A stretch of 64,000 nucleotides of DNA from the NCBI RefSeq assembly GCF_000689395.1, contig NZ_HG966617.1, positions 2,292,221-2,356,220 of the forward strand. Direction: 5' to 3'. Shown here piece after piece: positions 2,638 to 23,312 of the stretch. Both the position numbers and the translations under genes were made by a program. This DNA is from Candidatus Phaeomarinobacter ectocarpi (GTDB lineage: Bacteria > Pseudomonadota > Alphaproteobacteria > CGMCC-115125). The notes beneath the pieces are model-generated. The model had not been told where the DNA came from, did not search any database, and saw only the letters and a program-made list of their open reading frames with translations. Numbering within the stretch: position 1 is the first letter of the stretch; each line of letters begins with the position of its first letter.

Positions 2638-3852
2638 ATGTCCGCAAAGCCCGTCATTTTCGATGGTGTCCGCACCCCCTTTGGCCGCCACGGGGGCGCC
2701 ATGTCCCGCCTGCGGACCGATGAGCTGGCTGCGGCCCCCATCCGTGAAGTGCTCACGCGCTCCGGGCTCGACAGCGCGGCTGTGGAAGACGTGATCCTCG
2801 GCGACACCAACCAGGCCGGTGAAGACAGTCGCAACATTGCCCGCAATGCCTCCCTCATTGCAGGCCTGCCGGAAAAAACCGGTGGCCTTACCGTCAACCG
2901 TCTGTGCGGCTCAGGCCTTGCCGCCGTCATGGATGCGGGCCGCGCCATCAAGTGCGATGAAGGCGACATGTTCATTGCCGGCGGCATTGAAAGCATGAGC
3001 CGCGCACCACTTGTGATGTCAAAAGCCACCAGCCCGTTTGACCGTGGTCAGCAGCTGGAAGATTCCACCATCGGCTGGCGCTTCCCCAACCGCGATCTGC
3101 TGCAGCGCATCGGCAACGACACCATGCCGCAAACAGCAGAGAACATTGCAGAGCGCCTGGGCATCACCCGCGCCGACTCCGATACGTTCGCCGCTGCCTC
3201 CCACCAGAAATATGAAGCCGCCCTCGCCCGGGGCTTTTTTGCCGACGAGATCATGGATCTCGAAGTGCCCGCCGCCAAGCGCAAGGCCCCGCCGGAAATC
3301 TGCAACGCTGATGAAGGCCCCCGCCCGGGCACGACTGTTGAAGGTCTTGAGAAACTCCGCCCCATCCACGGCGAAGGTGGCGTTGTCACTGCCGCCAATG
3401 CGTCAGGCATCAATGATGGTGCCGCAGCGCTCATCATCGGTAACGAAGACAAAGGCACGAGCCTTGGCCTCAAGCCCCGCGCCCGCCTTGTCTCGGCCGC
3501 CATCGCTGGCGTCGAGCCGCGCGTCATGGGCCTTGGCCCGGTGGACGCCTCCAAGAAGGCCCTGGCCCGTGCCGGCCTGTCCCTCAAGGACATGGACGTG
3601 CTGGAACTCAACGAGGCCTTCGCCGCCCAGGTACTCGGCTGCCTCAAGCAGATGGACATCACCTTTGATGATCCACGCGTGAACCCCAATGGCGGCGCCA
3701 TCGCCATCGGTCATCCGCTCGGCGCATCCGGCGCCCGCCTGGCACTCACAGCCATTCGCGCCCTTGAGGAACAGGACAAGAAATACGCCCTCGTCTCCAT
3801 GTGCATCGGCATTGGCCAGGGCATTGCTGCCATCTTTGAACGTGCCGAATAA
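2638..3852 (+). CDS. Acetyl-CoA acetyltransferase / 3-oxoacyl-CoA thiolase
   Basis: A 404-aa thiolase with all catalytic elements: nucleophile Cys90 in NRLCGSGL, His359 in GHPLGASG and the second Cys389 in CIGIGQG. The N-terminal sequence (FDGVRTPFGRHGG) and length resemble PcaF-type 3-oxoadipyl-CoA/acetyl-CoA thiolases. The exact substrate cannot be set from sequence. A GGAGA lies just upstream of the ATG. The next gene, a flavodoxin-fold protein, starts 23 bases after the stop and is probably co-transcribed. Confidence 0.92.
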   Translation: MSAKPVIFDGVRTPFGRHGGAMSRLRTDELAAAPIREVLTRSGLDSAAVEDVILGDTNQAGEDSRNIARNASLIAGLPEKTGGLTVNRLCGSGLAAVMDAGRAIKCDEGDMFIAGGIESMSRAPLVMSKATSPFDRGQQLEDSTIGWRFPNRDLLQRIGNDTMPQTAENIAERLGITRADSDTFAAASHQKYEAALARGFFADEIMDLEVPAAKRKAPPEICNADEGPRPGTTVEGLEKLRPIHGEGGVVTAANASGINDGAAALIIGNEDKGTSLGLKPRARLVSAAIAGVEPRVMGLGPVDASKKALARAGLSLKDMDVLELNEAFAAQVLGCLKQMDITFDDPRVNPNGGAIAIGHPLGASGARLALTAIRALEEQDKKYALVSMCIGIGQGIAAIFERAE

Positions 3853-8522: not shown

Positions 8523-8544
8523 TTACAAAACAAGTGTTTTGTAA
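8523..8544. promoter_or_regulatory. 22-bp palindromic TetR operator
   Basis: Arms TTACAAAACA and TGTTTTGTAA are perfectly complementary around a two-base centre (AG). It lies in the spacer between the divergent hydroxylase (start 8453) and the TetR gene (start 8572), 27 bases before the regulator's ATG. Confidence 0.75.
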
Positions 8545-14123: not shown

Positions 14124-14150
14124 GAAGCAAAGCTTCCTCGACACAAAGAA

Positions 14151-14183
14151 GGCCCGCACCGCATTCCGGTGCGGGCCTTTTTC
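14151..14183. terminator. Bidirectional rho-independent terminator
   Basis: Stem GGCCCGCACCG / CGGTGCGGGCC with loop CATTC, followed by TTTTT on the plus strand and preceded by an A-rich stretch. It separates the convergent MDR dehydrogenase and sensor kinase genes. Confidence 0.88.
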
Positions 14184-14203: not shown

Positions 14204-16057
14204 TCACCCCACAGGCACAAAAACCTCGACCACGCTGCCTTCACCAGATTTTGCCTCTATCGTCACACGCCCGGACACCAGGTCCGTCCGCTCACGGATC
14301 GATGTCAGTCCAAATCCATCTGACTGCATCGCCGCATCCTCATCAAAACCGGACCCATTGTCCTGAATACTGACCTTCAAGCCGCCCCCCTGCCGTGACA
14401 GGACAATCTCTATGCGGTCTGCGTTGCCATGGGACACCGCATTGCGCAGCGCCTCCTGAATGATGCGATAGACATGATCCTTGGCCTGCGGCCCCAGCTC
14501 CGGCGGCCCATCAGACACAACGTCAATCTGCGTACCCGTGATTTCACCAAGCCGCTGGGCATGGTCACGCAAAAGCACCTCAAGCGGCTCGTCTGCGGTC
14601 ATGGCAGGGGCAAGATCATGCGACATGTCACGCAGGTCCCGGCTAGCAACGCTGGCAAATGACAGCGCATCTTCCAGATCACCGGCATCCACCGTGTCAC
14701 CGCGCGCCTGCTTTGCCTGCAGGCTCTGCAGCTTCAGATTGATGGCCGCAAGGCTTTGCCCCGCATTGTCATGAATGTCGCGCGCGATCCGGCCGCGTTC
14801 TTCGGTCTGTGCGCTCAACACACTCTCGCGCGCCCGCGCCAGCCGTTTACTTTGATCCAGAAAGTGAATGCCCAGCGATACGCCAGCCCCGAGCAGAATG
14901 AGCTTGGCACCAACCTCCACCCCAATGCCGCCCCACTGAAGAACCGCATCGGTAGAGGCAAACAAAGCCACCGCCATCCATGCCACCACAAGAACAAGAC
15001 CGGACATTGCCAGCGGCCATGCATGCCGCACACCGCCACGCCACGCCACCACCGCACAGAAGAACGACCACAGCATCGTGCTGGTTGTTGTGGCCTGGAA
15101 CGCCAGATCAAGCGCAAAGGACAATGAGTGCGGCCAGTCAGCCCAGCGAACCACAAAAACGATCGGCGGGATCAGCGCACACAGGGTGGCAAGCACCGTC
15201 ATCGGGAAAAACCGCCCCCAGCCCAAGGCCCGCGTGTAAAAGTCGTAGAACAGGTACAGGCTCACCCCCAACAGGAGAATGCCGACCCAGCTCACCATCA
15301 AGGACTGCAGGCCAAGCTCATAGGTCAGCTGCGAGTTGGTGAAGATGAAAGCAAAATGCGTGGCCCACATGGCGCAGAACGACCAGAAAAGGGCACCACG
15401 CACGCCGCCAAAATAGGCGGCCCCAATGAAGATGAGCGCCGCAATGTCTATGCCGAACAAAACCCATTGCACGGCCGCTGCCTGGTTTCGGTTTTGCTCA
15501 GCACGCTCCAACGCCGGTTCCCGGTCGGTGATCTGCACCGGCCCGCCGACAAAGCCACCTTCATTGAAATGCCGCCCCACACGCACCGCGATGACATTCT
15601 CTTGCCCCGGCTTGAGAAGCCCTACGGGTATGGGGTAGGCACGGTAGATCGATGGTGCATAGCTACGCAGTTGCGGCGACGTCCTGGAGAAAAATCCCTC
15701 GCCGCCAATCAGTTCGCCGTTGAAATAGGTCTCATCGCCCCAGCTGATGAGGCCTAATTCAAGCGCCAGCTTGCCAGCGGGCAGGTCGTCCGGCGCAACA
15801 AACCGAATGCGGTACCACCCAACATAGGTTGAAACGGAAACCCCGCTTTCACTCCACTTGCCCGGCACCAAAAGCGTGGGCCAATCACCATCATCAAAGG
15901 CGACAGATGCAAACGCAGGGTCATCACCTGGATAAAACGCATGCACGCCCTCAAGAGGCAGATTGAAGAGAGGCTCGTCCGGGCTGGCAGCATGAGCGGA
16001 CACTGCAAGACACAGCGTAAGCACGATGCTCCCGACAACACGCCACGCCTCCCTCAT
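14204..16057 (-). CDS. Sensor histidine kinase, 7TMR-DISM type with HisKA_3
   Basis: A 617-aa kinase. Signal peptide at 1-25 (ending AHA), then a periplasmic jelly-roll-like ligand domain (about 30-180, WYRIRFVAPDD..., YFNGELIGG), then seven hydrophobic segments (about 190-405), a short coiled coil, HisKA_3 with phospho-acceptor His429 in RDIHDNAGQS, and HATPase_c (NAVSHGNA, DNGSGFDE, DGFGLTSIRER). This is the NarX/LiaS family output paired with LuxR-type regulators. The start ATG has GGGGGAG upstream. It lies 22 bases after its response regulator gene in the same operon. Confidence 0.88.
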   Translation of the reverse strand: MREAWRVVGSIVLTLCLAVSAHAASPDEPLFNLPLEGVHAFYPGDDPAFASVAFDDGDWPTLLVPGKWSESGVSVSTYVGWYRIRFVAPDDLPAGKLALELGLISWGDETYFNGELIGGEGFFSRTSPQLRSYAPSIYRAYPIPVGLLKPGQENVIAVRVGRHFNEGGFVGGPVQITDREPALERAEQNRNQAAAVQWVLFGIDIAALIFIGAAYFGGVRGALFWSFCAMWATHFAFIFTNSQLTYELGLQSLMVSWVGILLLGVSLYLFYDFYTRALGWGRFFPMTVLATLCALIPPIVFVVRWADWPHSLSFALDLAFQATTTSTMLWSFFCAVVAWRGGVRHAWPLAMSGLVLVVAWMAVALFASTDAVLQWGGIGVEVGAKLILLGAGVSLGIHFLDQSKRLARARESVLSAQTEERGRIARDIHDNAGQSLAAINLKLQSLQAKQARGDTVDAGDLEDALSFASVASRDLRDMSHDLAPAMTADEPLEVLLRDHAQRLGEITGTQIDVVSDGPPELGPQAKDHVYRIIQEALRNAVSHGNADRIEIVLSRQGGGLKVSIQDNGSGFDEDAAMQSDGFGLTSIRERTDLVSGRVTIEAKSGEGSVVEVFVPVG

Positions 16058-16079
16058 GCAACCACTCCCCCAAATGCGG

Positions 16080-16721
16080 TCAGGCGTCTGCAAGTCCAAG
16101 GCTGATCGCAAGCCTGGTCATATGCGCGGCATTGCGGGCGCCCGTCTTTGCAATGATGTTACGTCGATGAGCATCCACCGTGCGTGGACTAAGGCCAAGC
16201 GTACCACTCACCGCTTGTGTGGACTGCCCTTGCGCAATCAACGCCAGAACATCCCGTTCCCGCGCGGTCAGGCTGGCCACGCCGCCCTTGTCCGACAACA
16301 GACCGTCTTCAAGCAGTGCCGCACTGATGTAACGCTCCCCAACGGCAGTCTGCCGGACGGCAAAGACCAGGCTTTCAAGTGTATCCTGCTTGAGCGCAAT
16401 GCCGGTGGCACCAGCTTCCAGCGCGCGATGCGCAATGTGTCGATCGCGGTGCATCGTCAGCATGAGCACAGGCCGCATGTCTCCACTCGCCCTCAAACGT
16501 TCGACAAACGCAATGCCATCCATGCCGGACATGGCCACATCAACCAGCAGGAAATCCGGGTCCAGCGGCCCAATCAACTCCAACGCGTCCTCAGCGGACC
16601 CTGCCTGTCCCGCAACCTCAATGCCGGCGCCTTCCGCCAGCTCGCGCGCCAGCAGATCCCGCATCAAGGCGTGATCATCGACCAGCAACAGCCGTTTTTT
16701 CGGGTTTTCAGTCTCCACCAT
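16080..16721 (-). CDS. NarL/FixJ (LuxR-type) response regulator
   Basis: A 213-aa regulator. Receiver domain at about 9-125 with phospho-acceptor Asp61 (LLVDVAMSGMDG) and the acid pair DD at 15-16. The C-terminal LuxR HTH is at about 145-205 (LTARERDVLALIAQG, LSPRTVDAHRRNI). A GGAG nine bases before 16721 favours this ATG over the upstream ATG at 16757, which falls inside a palindrome. It is the cognate regulator of the downstream kinase and probably controls the divergent outer-membrane/metzincin pair. Confidence 0.9.
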   Translation of the reverse strand: MVETENPKKRLLLVDDHALMRDLLARELAEGAGIEVAGQAGSAEDALELIGPLDPDFLLVDVAMSGMDGIAFVERLRASGDMRPVLMLTMHRDRHIAHRALEAGATGIALKQDTLESLVFAVRQTAVGERYISAALLEDGLLSDKGGVASLTARERDVLALIAQGQSTQAVSGTLGLSPRTVDAHRRNIIAKTGARNAAHMTRLAISLGLADA

Positions 16722-16755
16722 AGCCCAAAACTCCGCTGCTTTAGCGCCCTTGTCC

Positions 16756-16773
16756 ATAGGTAGTTCTACCTAT
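16756..16773. promoter_or_regulatory. 18-bp palindrome ATAGGTAG-TT-CTACCTAT, likely response-regulator box
   Basis: Two perfect 8-base arms lie between the divergent regulator and outer-membrane genes. Further TAGGTA/TAGGTT copies follow at about 16779 (CTAGGTAC) and 16791 (GTAGGTTG). LuxR/NarL-type regulators bind short heptamer-like inverted or direct repeats, so this cluster is a good candidate for the binding array of the adjacent regulator. Confidence 0.6.
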
Positions 16774-16854
16774 GCTCTAGGTACAAGTCGTAGGTTGTCC
16801 GTACACGGCGCACCCCACACTCTCCGCGAACATCTCATCGGGGAGTTTCAGACC

Positions 16855-18774
16855 ATGTTTGCGCATTACAGCACACGTCTTCAACTTGCTTTGGCAGCCC
16901 TGTGCGCCATTGTTTACGTGGCGTTGCCAGGCACCGCCGCAGCCCAGACGGCTGTGTCCTGCCCCACAGGCATTGGTGCTGGTGCCGTGTGCACCTGCGC
17001 CGGCGGTACGCTTACCATCGTCGAGCCACCAAACCCGGTGTTCAACGAAGCCAATTCATCTGCGTGCGCAGCACCCACACCGACGCAAAGTCTGGGCATG
17101 ACGCCGATACCGCAGGGTGAACTGCAGCAGAGAATTGATCGTGACCTCGAAGAGATAAAGCAGGGACGCGTGCTCGACAGATTCATTCAGCGCCTGGGCC
17201 TGGATCGCGCCCTAGAACAATTGGGCCGCGTTGAGGAGGAAGCGAAGGAAGAACCGGAAGAAGAGAGTGACAATGCGGACCTGCTCAAATCATACCAAAA
17301 CCAGCTGCAGGACGCTTTGAACGACCTGGCTCGTCTGAACGGGAACATTGAGAATCTCAACCAACAAAAAGACGACATCAAAAGTGAAATAGAACGTGCA
17401 AGAGACGATCAGACCCGGCTCGCAGATGACAACAAAACGCTGGCGGATGATCGCGCCAACGAACAGGTCAACCAAGAAGCATTGAAAGAAAAGCTGGCTG
17501 ACTACGAGTCCGGCACCGAGCAATACGACAAAGCATTTTCAGCCTACCAAACAGCCTTGCAGAACCAGAGCTACTGGCAGTCGATCGTCTCCAACTACGG
17601 GAAGCTATCCATCCAGGATGCCCAAGACCTGCTCAACCGAGGCATCGGATTGAAAGCCGCAACAAACTACCTAAGCGCGGCAAACCTCCGTGTTCAAGTA
17701 GCCGCCAATGATCTGGCTGCGGCAAAAGCCGCCCATCCTGAAGCAGAGGCGGGACGGAAGCGCATTGAAACTGAAATCTCGCAGTCTCAGGACCGCATCA
17801 CGACGATCAACAACACAATCGCCAGCAATGAAAACAAGATAGAAGCCCTCAGCGGCGACATTGTTGACCTGGAGGCTGCAATCAATATGGCTGATGGCAC
17901 CATCAACTCCATCCGCCGGATCGAGATACCGCCGGTACAAGCCAGGATCGCAAAACTGAAGAGCCTCATTGCGGCCCTCAAATCGGACAACCAGTTTGCA
18001 GGTCCCGGTACAGGCCCCTTCGATGCGCTGCGCAGTCGTGGCATTGAGCTCTTTGTGGCAACCGGATATCGGGCCACAACCGACAAGCAGGTTGGACGTA
18101 ATGTGGAGGCAGACGACGTCAATGTGTCCGCAGGCATTCAGGCGCGCTTCACAGAGCGCCTGGTTGCTGGCTTGGGGATCAACGTCGCCGTTTCGGACAG
18201 TGACGATAAGACCGGTACGGGCACATCTACAGACAGCACCTCAGTGGCCATCGCGCCTTATGCCGTCTATCAGCTGGATGAAGGACTGGCTGCGACGGGC
18301 TCTCTTGTGTATGCGCGAACCAAAAACGATATCACCCGCGCGGGTATCGCGAACGCAGACTATCTGTCTCACACCTATGGCGGCGCAATTGGCTTGAGCG
18401 CGCAACGCCGCCTCAGCCAGTGGATTGCCATAACCGGCGGCATCAATCAGTCCTATTTTCACACCAGCAGTGACGGATACACAGACACCATAGGACTGAC
18501 GATTTCAGACTCCAGCACCAACACCGCAACGTCGTCCCTCGCCGGCCGCATGGATATCTTTCCGGCCGACGGCTGGCGTGTCTTTGGCGGGACGAGCGTG
18601 AACTACGCAACCATTGAACTGGCAAATGATCTTGATCGGTTGGACGCCTCCATATCAGGAGGCATCGAACGTAACTGGGGCAACGCCTCCGTGCTTGCTC
18701 AAGTCAACCACCTCGCCTTCCGCAATAATCTGGACACCACCGGCGTCTCACTGCAGCTGCGTGTGCCCTGGTAG
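16855..18774 (+). CDS. Outer-membrane protein with periplasmic/surface coiled coil and autotransporter-like beta-barrel
   Basis: A 639-aa protein. The signal peptide ends near GTAAAQ (about residue 31). A Cys-containing segment follows (33-80, CPTGIG, CTCAGG), then a long coiled coil (about 125-385) rich in Asp/Glu/Lys/Gln heptads. The C-terminal 250 residues form alternating strands ending LQLRVPW, an aromatic-terminated barrel of the autotransporter/OmpA-like kind. The start has GGGGAG upstream. The stop TAG abuts the ATG of a metzincin lipoprotein gene. I infer an adhesin or surface structural role. No recognised adhesin domain is seen. Confidence 0.72.
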   Translation: MFAHYSTRLQLALAALCAIVYVALPGTAAAQTAVSCPTGIGAGAVCTCAGGTLTIVEPPNPVFNEANSSACAAPTPTQSLGMTPIPQGELQQRIDRDLEEIKQGRVLDRFIQRLGLDRALEQLGRVEEEAKEEPEEESDNADLLKSYQNQLQDALNDLARLNGNIENLNQQKDDIKSEIERARDDQTRLADDNKTLADDRANEQVNQEALKEKLADYESGTEQYDKAFSAYQTALQNQSYWQSIVSNYGKLSIQDAQDLLNRGIGLKAATNYLSAANLRVQVAANDLAAAKAAHPEAEAGRKRIETEISQSQDRITTINNTIASNENKIEALSGDIVDLEAAINMADGTINSIRRIEIPPVQARIAKLKSLIAALKSDNQFAGPGTGPFDALRSRGIELFVATGYRATTDKQVGRNVEADDVNVSAGIQARFTERLVAGLGINVAVSDSDDKTGTGTSTDSTSVAIAPYAVYQLDEGLAATGSLVYARTKNDITRAGIANADYLSHTYGGAIGLSAQRRLSQWIAITGGINQSYFHTSSDGYTDTIGLTISDSSTNTATSSLAGRMDIFPADGWRVFGGTSVNYATIELANDLDRLDASISGGIERNWGNASVLAQVNHLAFRNNLDTTGVSLQLRVPW

Positions 18775-19290
18775 ATGCGCCACTGGCCGAAATATGTGGC
18801 TCTGGGCATCCTCCTGCTCACAACAGGATGTGCGGGACAGGCATCGCTTTCCGACACCGCACCCAAGGTGCACGTGTCAATCGAGGCGGCTGCAGCTTGG
18901 CCCGCCGGTGCGGTGCAGTCTCAACTCAAATCCGCAACACGCCGATATGCTCAGTGCGGCATAAGGCTCGAAACACATCTGCTAAAAGCAACGAAGCCAG
19001 ATCTTCCAAAAGTTCGTTTCGTCGCGTCACTGCCTCCCGTCGCCGGCAAAGCCGTTGAAGGCCGCGCCTTTGATCTCGATGGCCAGTCCATTGTCGAGAT
19101 TGCGTGGATGGATGCCTCGGGCACTGCCCTCGACCACAGGCAGACACTCGCCCACGAGCTTGGCCATGTGCTGGGCCTGCGCCACACGCCGCTCCACAGC
19201 ATCAACCTGATGTCACCCCATGGCTGCGAGCTGTGCAGTTTTACCCCAAGCCAGTGCGATACGCTCCGGCGAAACATGCAGCGCCTCTAG
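18775..19290 (+). CDS. Metzincin-type metalloprotease lipoprotein
   Basis: A 171-aa protein. The lipobox LTTGC (Cys19) marks a lipoprotein. The residue after Cys is Ala, so there is no Asp retention signal and outer-membrane sorting is expected. The zinc motif HELGHVLGLRH at 127-137 has the three metzincin histidines (127, 131, 137) and catalytic Glu128. Met146 in INLMSP fits the Met-turn. Cys61, 151, 154 and 161 could form disulfides. It is very short for a metzincin. The start codon follows the upstream stop directly, indicating translational coupling to the coiled-coil barrel protein, a possible substrate. Confidence 0.82.
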   Translation: MRHWPKYVALGILLLTTGCAGQASLSDTAPKVHVSIEAAAAWPAGAVQSQLKSATRRYAQCGIRLETHLLKATKPDLPKVRFVASLPPVAGKAVEGRAFDLDGQSIVEIAWMDASGTALDHRQTLAHELGHVLGLRHTPLHSINLMSPHGCELCSFTPSQCDTLRRNMQRL

Positions 19291-23280: not shown

Positions 23281-23312
23281 AAAAGGGCGTCCTGCACAGG
23301 ACGCCCTTTTTT
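23281..23312. terminator. Bidirectional rho-independent terminator
   Basis: AAAA, then stem GGGCGTCCTG / CAGGACGCCC with a two-base centre, then TTTTTT. It serves the barrel gene on the plus strand and the convergent methyltransferase gene on the minus strand. Confidence 0.9.

Follow-up and report, generated by a model that had tools for sequence, protein, structure and literature searches.

On one strand of the genome of “Candidatus Phaeomarinobacter ectocarpi” Ec32, a gene for a coiled-coil barrel protein is followed by a gene for a small lipoprotein with a zinc-protease motif, and a sensor kinase and a response regulator are read in the opposite direction. The question raised by this locus is whether the four genes form one system, and what the barrel protein and the lipoprotein may do together. 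Ec32 is an associate of the brown alga Ectocarpus, with a genome of 3,415,905 bp and 59% G+C (PMC4110880). The assembly analysed here is likewise a single contig of 3,415,905 bases, and the window, the 64-kb stretch of DNA in which the locus lies, has a G+C content of 59%. Autotransporters and proteases are not mentioned in the main text of the Ec32 genome paper (PMC4110880). A check of open reading frames and Pfam domains recovered all four genes at the positions given by the first-pass annotation of the window, and the features of the locus are as follows.

14149..14179, minus strand: likely intrinsic terminator with a 13-bp stem, 3' of the kinase, ending the regulator-kinase operon
14204..16057, minus strand: sensor histidine kinase, 617 aa from ATG 16057, frame open to 16111 (Pfam, hydropathy)
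16080..16721, minus strand: NarL/FixJ-type response regulator, 213 aa from ATG 16721, frame open to 16757 (Response_reg and GerE)
16755..16774, no strand: perfect palindrome CATAGGTAG-TT-CTACCTATG, candidate regulator box for both divergent operons
16855..18774, plus strand: predicted autotransporter with alpha-helical passenger, 639 aa (PF03797), Shine-Dalgarno-like GGGGAG before the ATG
16855..16947, plus strand: signal peptide, aa 1-31, LAALCAIVYVALPGTAAAQ, visible in the sequence
16948..17124, plus strand: Cys-containing N-terminal segment, Cys 46 and 71 common to all aligned members
17269..17991, plus strand: two long predicted helices, aa 139-246 and 266-379 (AlphaFold2 model, pLDDT mostly 72-95 here)
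17989..18006, plus strand: NQFAGP linker at the coil-barrel junction (family consensus [NF]Q[LF][AS]G), candidate site of cleavage
18043..18768, plus strand: predicted 12-stranded translocator barrel, aa 397-638, aromatic C-terminus (AlphaFold2 strands, Foldseek)
18775..19290, plus strand: predicted metzincin lipoprotein of 171 aa, lipidation predicted at Cys19, too little space for a propeptide (zinc motif, Foldseek)
19153..19185, plus strand: HELGHVLGLRH zinc site, aa 127-137

The frames of the barrel protein and the metzincin abut, with the TAG of the former ending at 18774 and the ATG of the latter starting at 18775. For the kinase, the start at ATG 16057 was preferred over 16111 because a signal peptide follows 16057; for the regulator, 16721 was preferred over 16757 because the longer start would put the palindrome over the start codon.

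The barrel protein and the lipoprotein

The barrel protein carries the autotransporter beta-domain PF03797 at its C-terminus (E 3.5e-14; 53.6 bits against a cut-off of 26), a domain matched by all six aligned members of the barrel family. In Foldseek searches the top match of the barrel was the EspP beta-domain (E 2.5e-12), BrkA reached a TM score of 0.71 by target length, and the other best structural matches were Hbp, NalP and EstA, all classical autotransporter translocators. Comparison of the protein by sequence with the PDB returned coiled-coil noise only. The structure models of both the barrel protein and the metzincin are of modest confidence (mean pLDDT about 60, from alignments of three sequences). 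Judged by its barrel, the protein is classed as an autotransporter with a passenger predicted to be helical. Where type Va autotransporters have a helical linker through the pore, the model has a short helix (388-394) before strand 1, in a region of low confidence. The signal peptide, Cys-containing segment, coiled coil and C-terminal barrel of the first-pass annotation were all found, and the coiled coil resolves into two predicted helices that together span about 240 residues. These helices are nearly equal in length with a break between them, and profile comparison of the coil weakly picks up hairpin proteins (Vipp1 and SH3BP5, for example), which suggests that the two may possibly form an antiparallel hairpin. 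Since PF03797 is present and the barrel matches the translocators of EspP, BrkA, Hbp and NalP, the coiled coil is likely to be displayed at the cell surface, a judgement drawn from family knowledge only.

Type Va autotransporters with alpha-helical passengers have been described as the “Group 14” adhesins Aae, Sca1, Sca2 and ScaC (PMC9289746). The same PF03797 12-strand translocator, signal peptide and helical passenger are found in these adhesins and in the window protein. The latter, a putative adhesin, differs in its long two-helix coil, its Cys-bearing N-terminal segment, its metzincin partner and its origin in an alphaproteobacterial associate of algae.

The first-pass description of the second gene product as a lipoprotein with HELGHVLGLRH was borne out by a lipobox (LLTTGC) and by the full zinc motif HExxHxxGxxH at residues 127-137, followed by INLM with Met at 146. 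The zinc site and Met-turn are kept in the four intact copies, as are four Cys (61, 151, 154, 161), and the lipoboxes of the intact copies (TTGC-A, IGGC-G, LAGC-S, LSAC-A) all have the Cys and no Asp at +2. About a dozen residues separate the lipidated Cys from the first strand, and there is no propeptide, so the activity of the predicted metzincin is probably limited by expression alone. The top Foldseek matches of its model (mean pLDDT 60.5) are fragilysin and MMPs, with E down to 8e-5 and a TM score of about 0.5. Placement in a named peptidase family was rejected, the protein being under the cut-off for every named metzincin family; against matrixin M10 (PF00413) it scores 22.0 bits for a cut-off of 24, and its relatives score 18.7-20.5. 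The bacterial matrixin/fragilysin-type enzymes karilysin, fragilysin and myroilysin have the same HExxHxxGxxH, a Met after the zinc site and the metzincin fold, whereas the window metzincin lies under all family cut-offs, lacks a propeptide, is predicted to be lipid-anchored and has four conserved Cys.

Recurrence of the pair in other genomes

Searches with the metzincin found it in five genomes, namely that of the window, G002 and G003 of the same genus, and the metagenome-assembled genomes (MAGs) FE80 and OFTM199 of another order. All four intact copies (two species of the genus, two MAGs) adjoin a barrel gene, FE80 and OFTM199 being close relatives of each other. The barrel and metzincin frames abut or overlap in three loci (window, FE80, OFTM199): in FE80 (L017) and OFTM199 (L016) the order is LuxR, barrel, metzincin, and a likely GTG start of the metzincin overlaps the barrel end. 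In G002, LuxR and barrel come first and the metzincin gene, on the other strand, is tail to tail with the barrel gene, which indicates that adjacency outlived the loss of the operon. In G003 a LuxR gene, a barrel gene, a metzincin remnant and another LuxR gene are followed by a second barrel gene cut by the contig end; the remnant has 71 codons, HELGH has become RQLGH and the lipobox is gone, and the adjoining barrel gene is intact. Both barrel and metzincin are absent from a further species of the genus (G001). Outside the genus, no metzincin match was found among 385 sampled Alphaproteobacteria genomes, and 2 of 40 genomes matched in the order of FE80.

The first-pass annotation had linked its reading to the two genes being neighbours beyond this strain. 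This held up: they are adjacent in FE80, OFTM199 and G002, and the pair thus recurs in two loci of another order and, inverted, in one sister species, with a remnant in a third species. The same annotation had treated four genes as one system, and this was rejected. No kinase homologue was found at E<=1e-30 in three sister species, and in the relatives with the barrel a LuxR-type regulator stands in its place. The conserved unit is two genes, autotransporter and lipoprotein metzincin, and not four; going by these searches, the two-component system is local to the species of the window and outside that unit. The metzincin of the window is 34-48% identical to those of the other loci. Pairwise identities of barrel and metzincin rank alike, and the window's copies of both are nearer to those of FE80 than to those of the congener G002, which weakly suggests, on four intact pairs, that the pair travels together.

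The barrel is also found without an intact protease. G392, from the order of FE80, has no metzincin. It encodes a relative of 680 residues (L055/L065) in which the same Cys-bearing N-terminal segment is followed by a helical central part and a barrel, and a regulator with a GerE domain is read divergently from this gene. Barrel-only relatives of about 360 aa also occur in this order (L054, L062, L064), and they adjoin a conserved His/Pro-rich secreted protein (NHHYRPPAPP...). The linker motif [NF]Q[LF][AS]G is present in all six aligned barrel members and missing from the metzincin-free G392 protein; it is also present in G003, where the sole metzincin found is the remnant. Because G003 keeps only a remnant beside an intact barrel gene and G392 has a barrel without metzincin, the protease appears to be accessory.

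This distribution bears on three other explanations of the pair. The lipoprotein may aid the autotransporter without processing it, in the way that the lipoprotein SadB helps the autotransporter SadA to be displayed on the surface (PMC3953254). A helper role of this kind is very improbable, as every intact metzincin copy has the full zinc-binding and catalytic motif, barrel genes stay open after loss of the lipoprotein, and the fold of SadB is MATH-like rather than that of a protease (PMC3953254). That the barrel persists without an intact protease in G003 and G392 agrees better with an accessory enzyme for processing than with a role in assembly.

The pair may instead resemble the Pseudomonas amyloid export proteins FapF and FapD. 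FapF has an N-terminal periplasmic coiled coil, a helical plug and a 12-stranded autotransporter-like barrel, and a dedicated protease is required (PMC5557850). The window protein likewise has a coil and, in a low-confidence region of the model, a short helix (388-394) before strand 1 of its 12-strand barrel, and it too has a protease partner. The coil would then be a periplasmic platform, the barrel would export other cargo, and a periplasm-facing metzincin would be needed for export, as FapD is in Pseudomonas; the default facing of lipoproteins towards the periplasm suits such an arrangement. Even so, an export channel is distinctly unlikely here. None of the loci has a recognisable gene for an amyloid or another exported partner, there was no FapF sequence match, and FapF is not among the 50 best structural matches, which are headed by classical, monomeric autotransporters. 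The FapF coil has about 40 residues compared with about 240 in the window protein, and G003 and G392 do without an intact protease.

Shared regulation only could also explain the conserved adjacency, with the barrel protein acting as an adhesin and the metzincin, an otherwise independent member of the same regulon, digesting outside or host proteins. The barrel does occur without the protease, barrel and metzincin in G002 lie on opposite strands and no longer form one message, and the organism lives on algae (PMC4110880). Independence of this kind is judged unlikely, given that immediate adjacency persists in two orders, that barrel and metzincin have similar divergence ranks, and that the lipid tether of the metzincin is too short for a far reach.

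Regulators in front of the pair

In the window, the regulator opposite the barrel gene, first annotated as LuxR-type, has Response_reg (E 8e-23) and GerE (E 3e-16) domains and is of the NarL/FixJ type. The kinase, annotated as 7TM-DISM/HisKA_3, kept the second half of that name: HisKA_3 (E 7e-12) and HATPase_c (E 6e-14) were matched, whereas 7TM-DISM had no Pfam match at E<=1 and is resembled in layout by hydropathy only. Hydropathy and Pfam together give a signal peptide, a periplasmic jelly-roll-like domain, about 6-7 TM helices, HisKA_3 and HATPase_c. The periplasmic part (window 15512-15994) is similar to a jelly-roll domain found in sialate O-acetylesterases (E 1e-9) and also resembles the sugar-binding jelly-roll domains of beta-galactosidases. 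From these resemblances a glycan is a reasonable guess for the ligand of the sensor domain, so that the kinase of this algal associate may be a sensor of glycans.

The perfect palindrome lies between the divergent operons and, as TAGGTAG-TT-CTACCTA, is the sole site in the 3.4-Mb genome with 0 or 1 mismatch. A 7-2-7 layout is typical of NarL-type regulator sites. Three perfect 9-2-9 palindromes occur in the 64-kb window (the others at 23286-23305 and 8524-8543), and the chance of one falling in the gap of ~130 bases is about 0.005. The palindrome is a candidate box through which the response regulator may serve both operons. A promoter scan of the intergenic region found no sigma-70-like site. 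A second palindrome site with 2 mismatches (G000:C1:2447327), in or next to a photolyase-like gene, was set aside as looking unrelated.

In the relatives, a LuxR-type regulator of the quorum-sensing kind (autoinducer-binding PF03472 and GerE) precedes the barrel in G002, G003 (twice), FE80 and OFTM199. A lux-box-like repeat, ACCTGyCCATwTGGmCAGyT, lies upstream of the barrel. Its core is invariant in the five aligned upstream regions, and a TAG is conserved some 32 bp downstream of the middle of the repeat, a spacing that in lux promoters fits a box at -42.5. Neither the PF03472 and GerE regulator nor the lux box is found in front of the barrel of the window, where the two-component system and the palindrome occupy the same position instead. 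The comparison points to a regulator exchange before the same pair. Two LuxI homologues per genome are found in the genus, and FE80 and OFTM199 gave no PF00765 match in MAG assemblies of which the completeness is not established, so the LuxR proteins of these two may be LuxR solos.

The LuxR-type proteins at L014:7081-8142 (G002) and L015:1587-2762 (G003) are unusual in layout, with an autoinducer-binding domain followed by two tandem GerE domains. A DNA-binding-domain-only ORF of about 66 codons lies between LuxR and barrel at L017 about 2792-3110 and L016 about 2750-3060, with a lux-box-like repeat on both sides; the C-terminus of LuxR and the box look as if they had been duplicated in tandem.

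A proposed mechanism and its relation to known systems

The preferred reading, which we hold to have about an even chance of being right, is a regulated, surface-displayed helical autotransporter passenger with its own lipoprotein metzincin, which would process it close to the membrane. The first gene would give a type Va-like autotransporter with a short Cys-bearing N-terminal segment carried on a long coiled coil, and the second, whose translation would follow directly, a small metzincin that is always active and is held at the outer membrane through its lipid and a short tether. The metzincin would cut the passenger and so trim or release it, and its short tether favours a cut near the membrane. 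The simplest cut site would be the conserved NQ[LF][AS]G linker above the barrel; cleavage and cut site, like surface exposure, ligand and a role in adhesion, are parts of the model that we infer. Directly after the cut, MMP-type enzymes prefer Leu or Phe, and it is speculation by analogy that the linker motif offers such a residue. Production of protease and substrate from one message would let transcription set the displayed amount. In Ca. P. ectocarpi, the divergent two-component system with its carbohydrate-binding-like periplasmic sensor would act through the palindrome of the shared promoter, and in the relatives a LuxR-type regulator on the lux-box-like site would do the same job. The default position of lipoproteins in the periplasmic leaflet counts against a surface protease. 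NalP and SphB1 reach the surface by being autotransporters themselves, which counts against a surface metzincin by the same route. The fullest version, in which the metzincin cuts the co-encoded autotransporter and display is set by LuxR (AHL) in relatives and by a glycan-responsive two-component sensor here, is possible but doubtful.

The idea of regulated display with a dedicated protease keeps its conserved pair and its likely surface display; the four-gene system and the analogy with LapA/LapG fall away. LapG, a cysteine protease of the periplasm, is under the control of LapD and c-di-GMP; LapA is a giant adhesin secreted by a type I system. Nothing at the locus corresponds to them, and the common idea is only that of protease-controlled release of a surface protein. 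Nearer in function are NalP of Neisseria and SphB1 of Bordetella, lipidated surface proteases that process autotransporters (PMC9289746). In both cases a lipid-anchored protease acts, or would act, on other surface proteins, and the likeness is functional only: NalP and SphB1 are subtilisin-type serine proteases and themselves autotransporters, whereas a 150-residue metzincin lipoprotein lies here beside its presumed substrate. The system is best read, by this analogy, as an autotransporter with a dedicated lipoprotein protease, functionally like NalP or SphB1 and not LapG.

A literature search found no paper that describes a metzincin and an autotransporter as a pair. If the neighbouring protein is indeed cut, the enzyme would be, to our knowledge, the first metzincin dedicated to an autotransporter, and the pair would offer a compact model of how an algal associate tunes its attachment. 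If the two-component and glycan reading is true, display would follow host glycans and not cell density. The same effector pair standing behind a LuxR/lux-box switch in the relatives and behind a two-component switch here is a clean natural case of regulatory rewiring.
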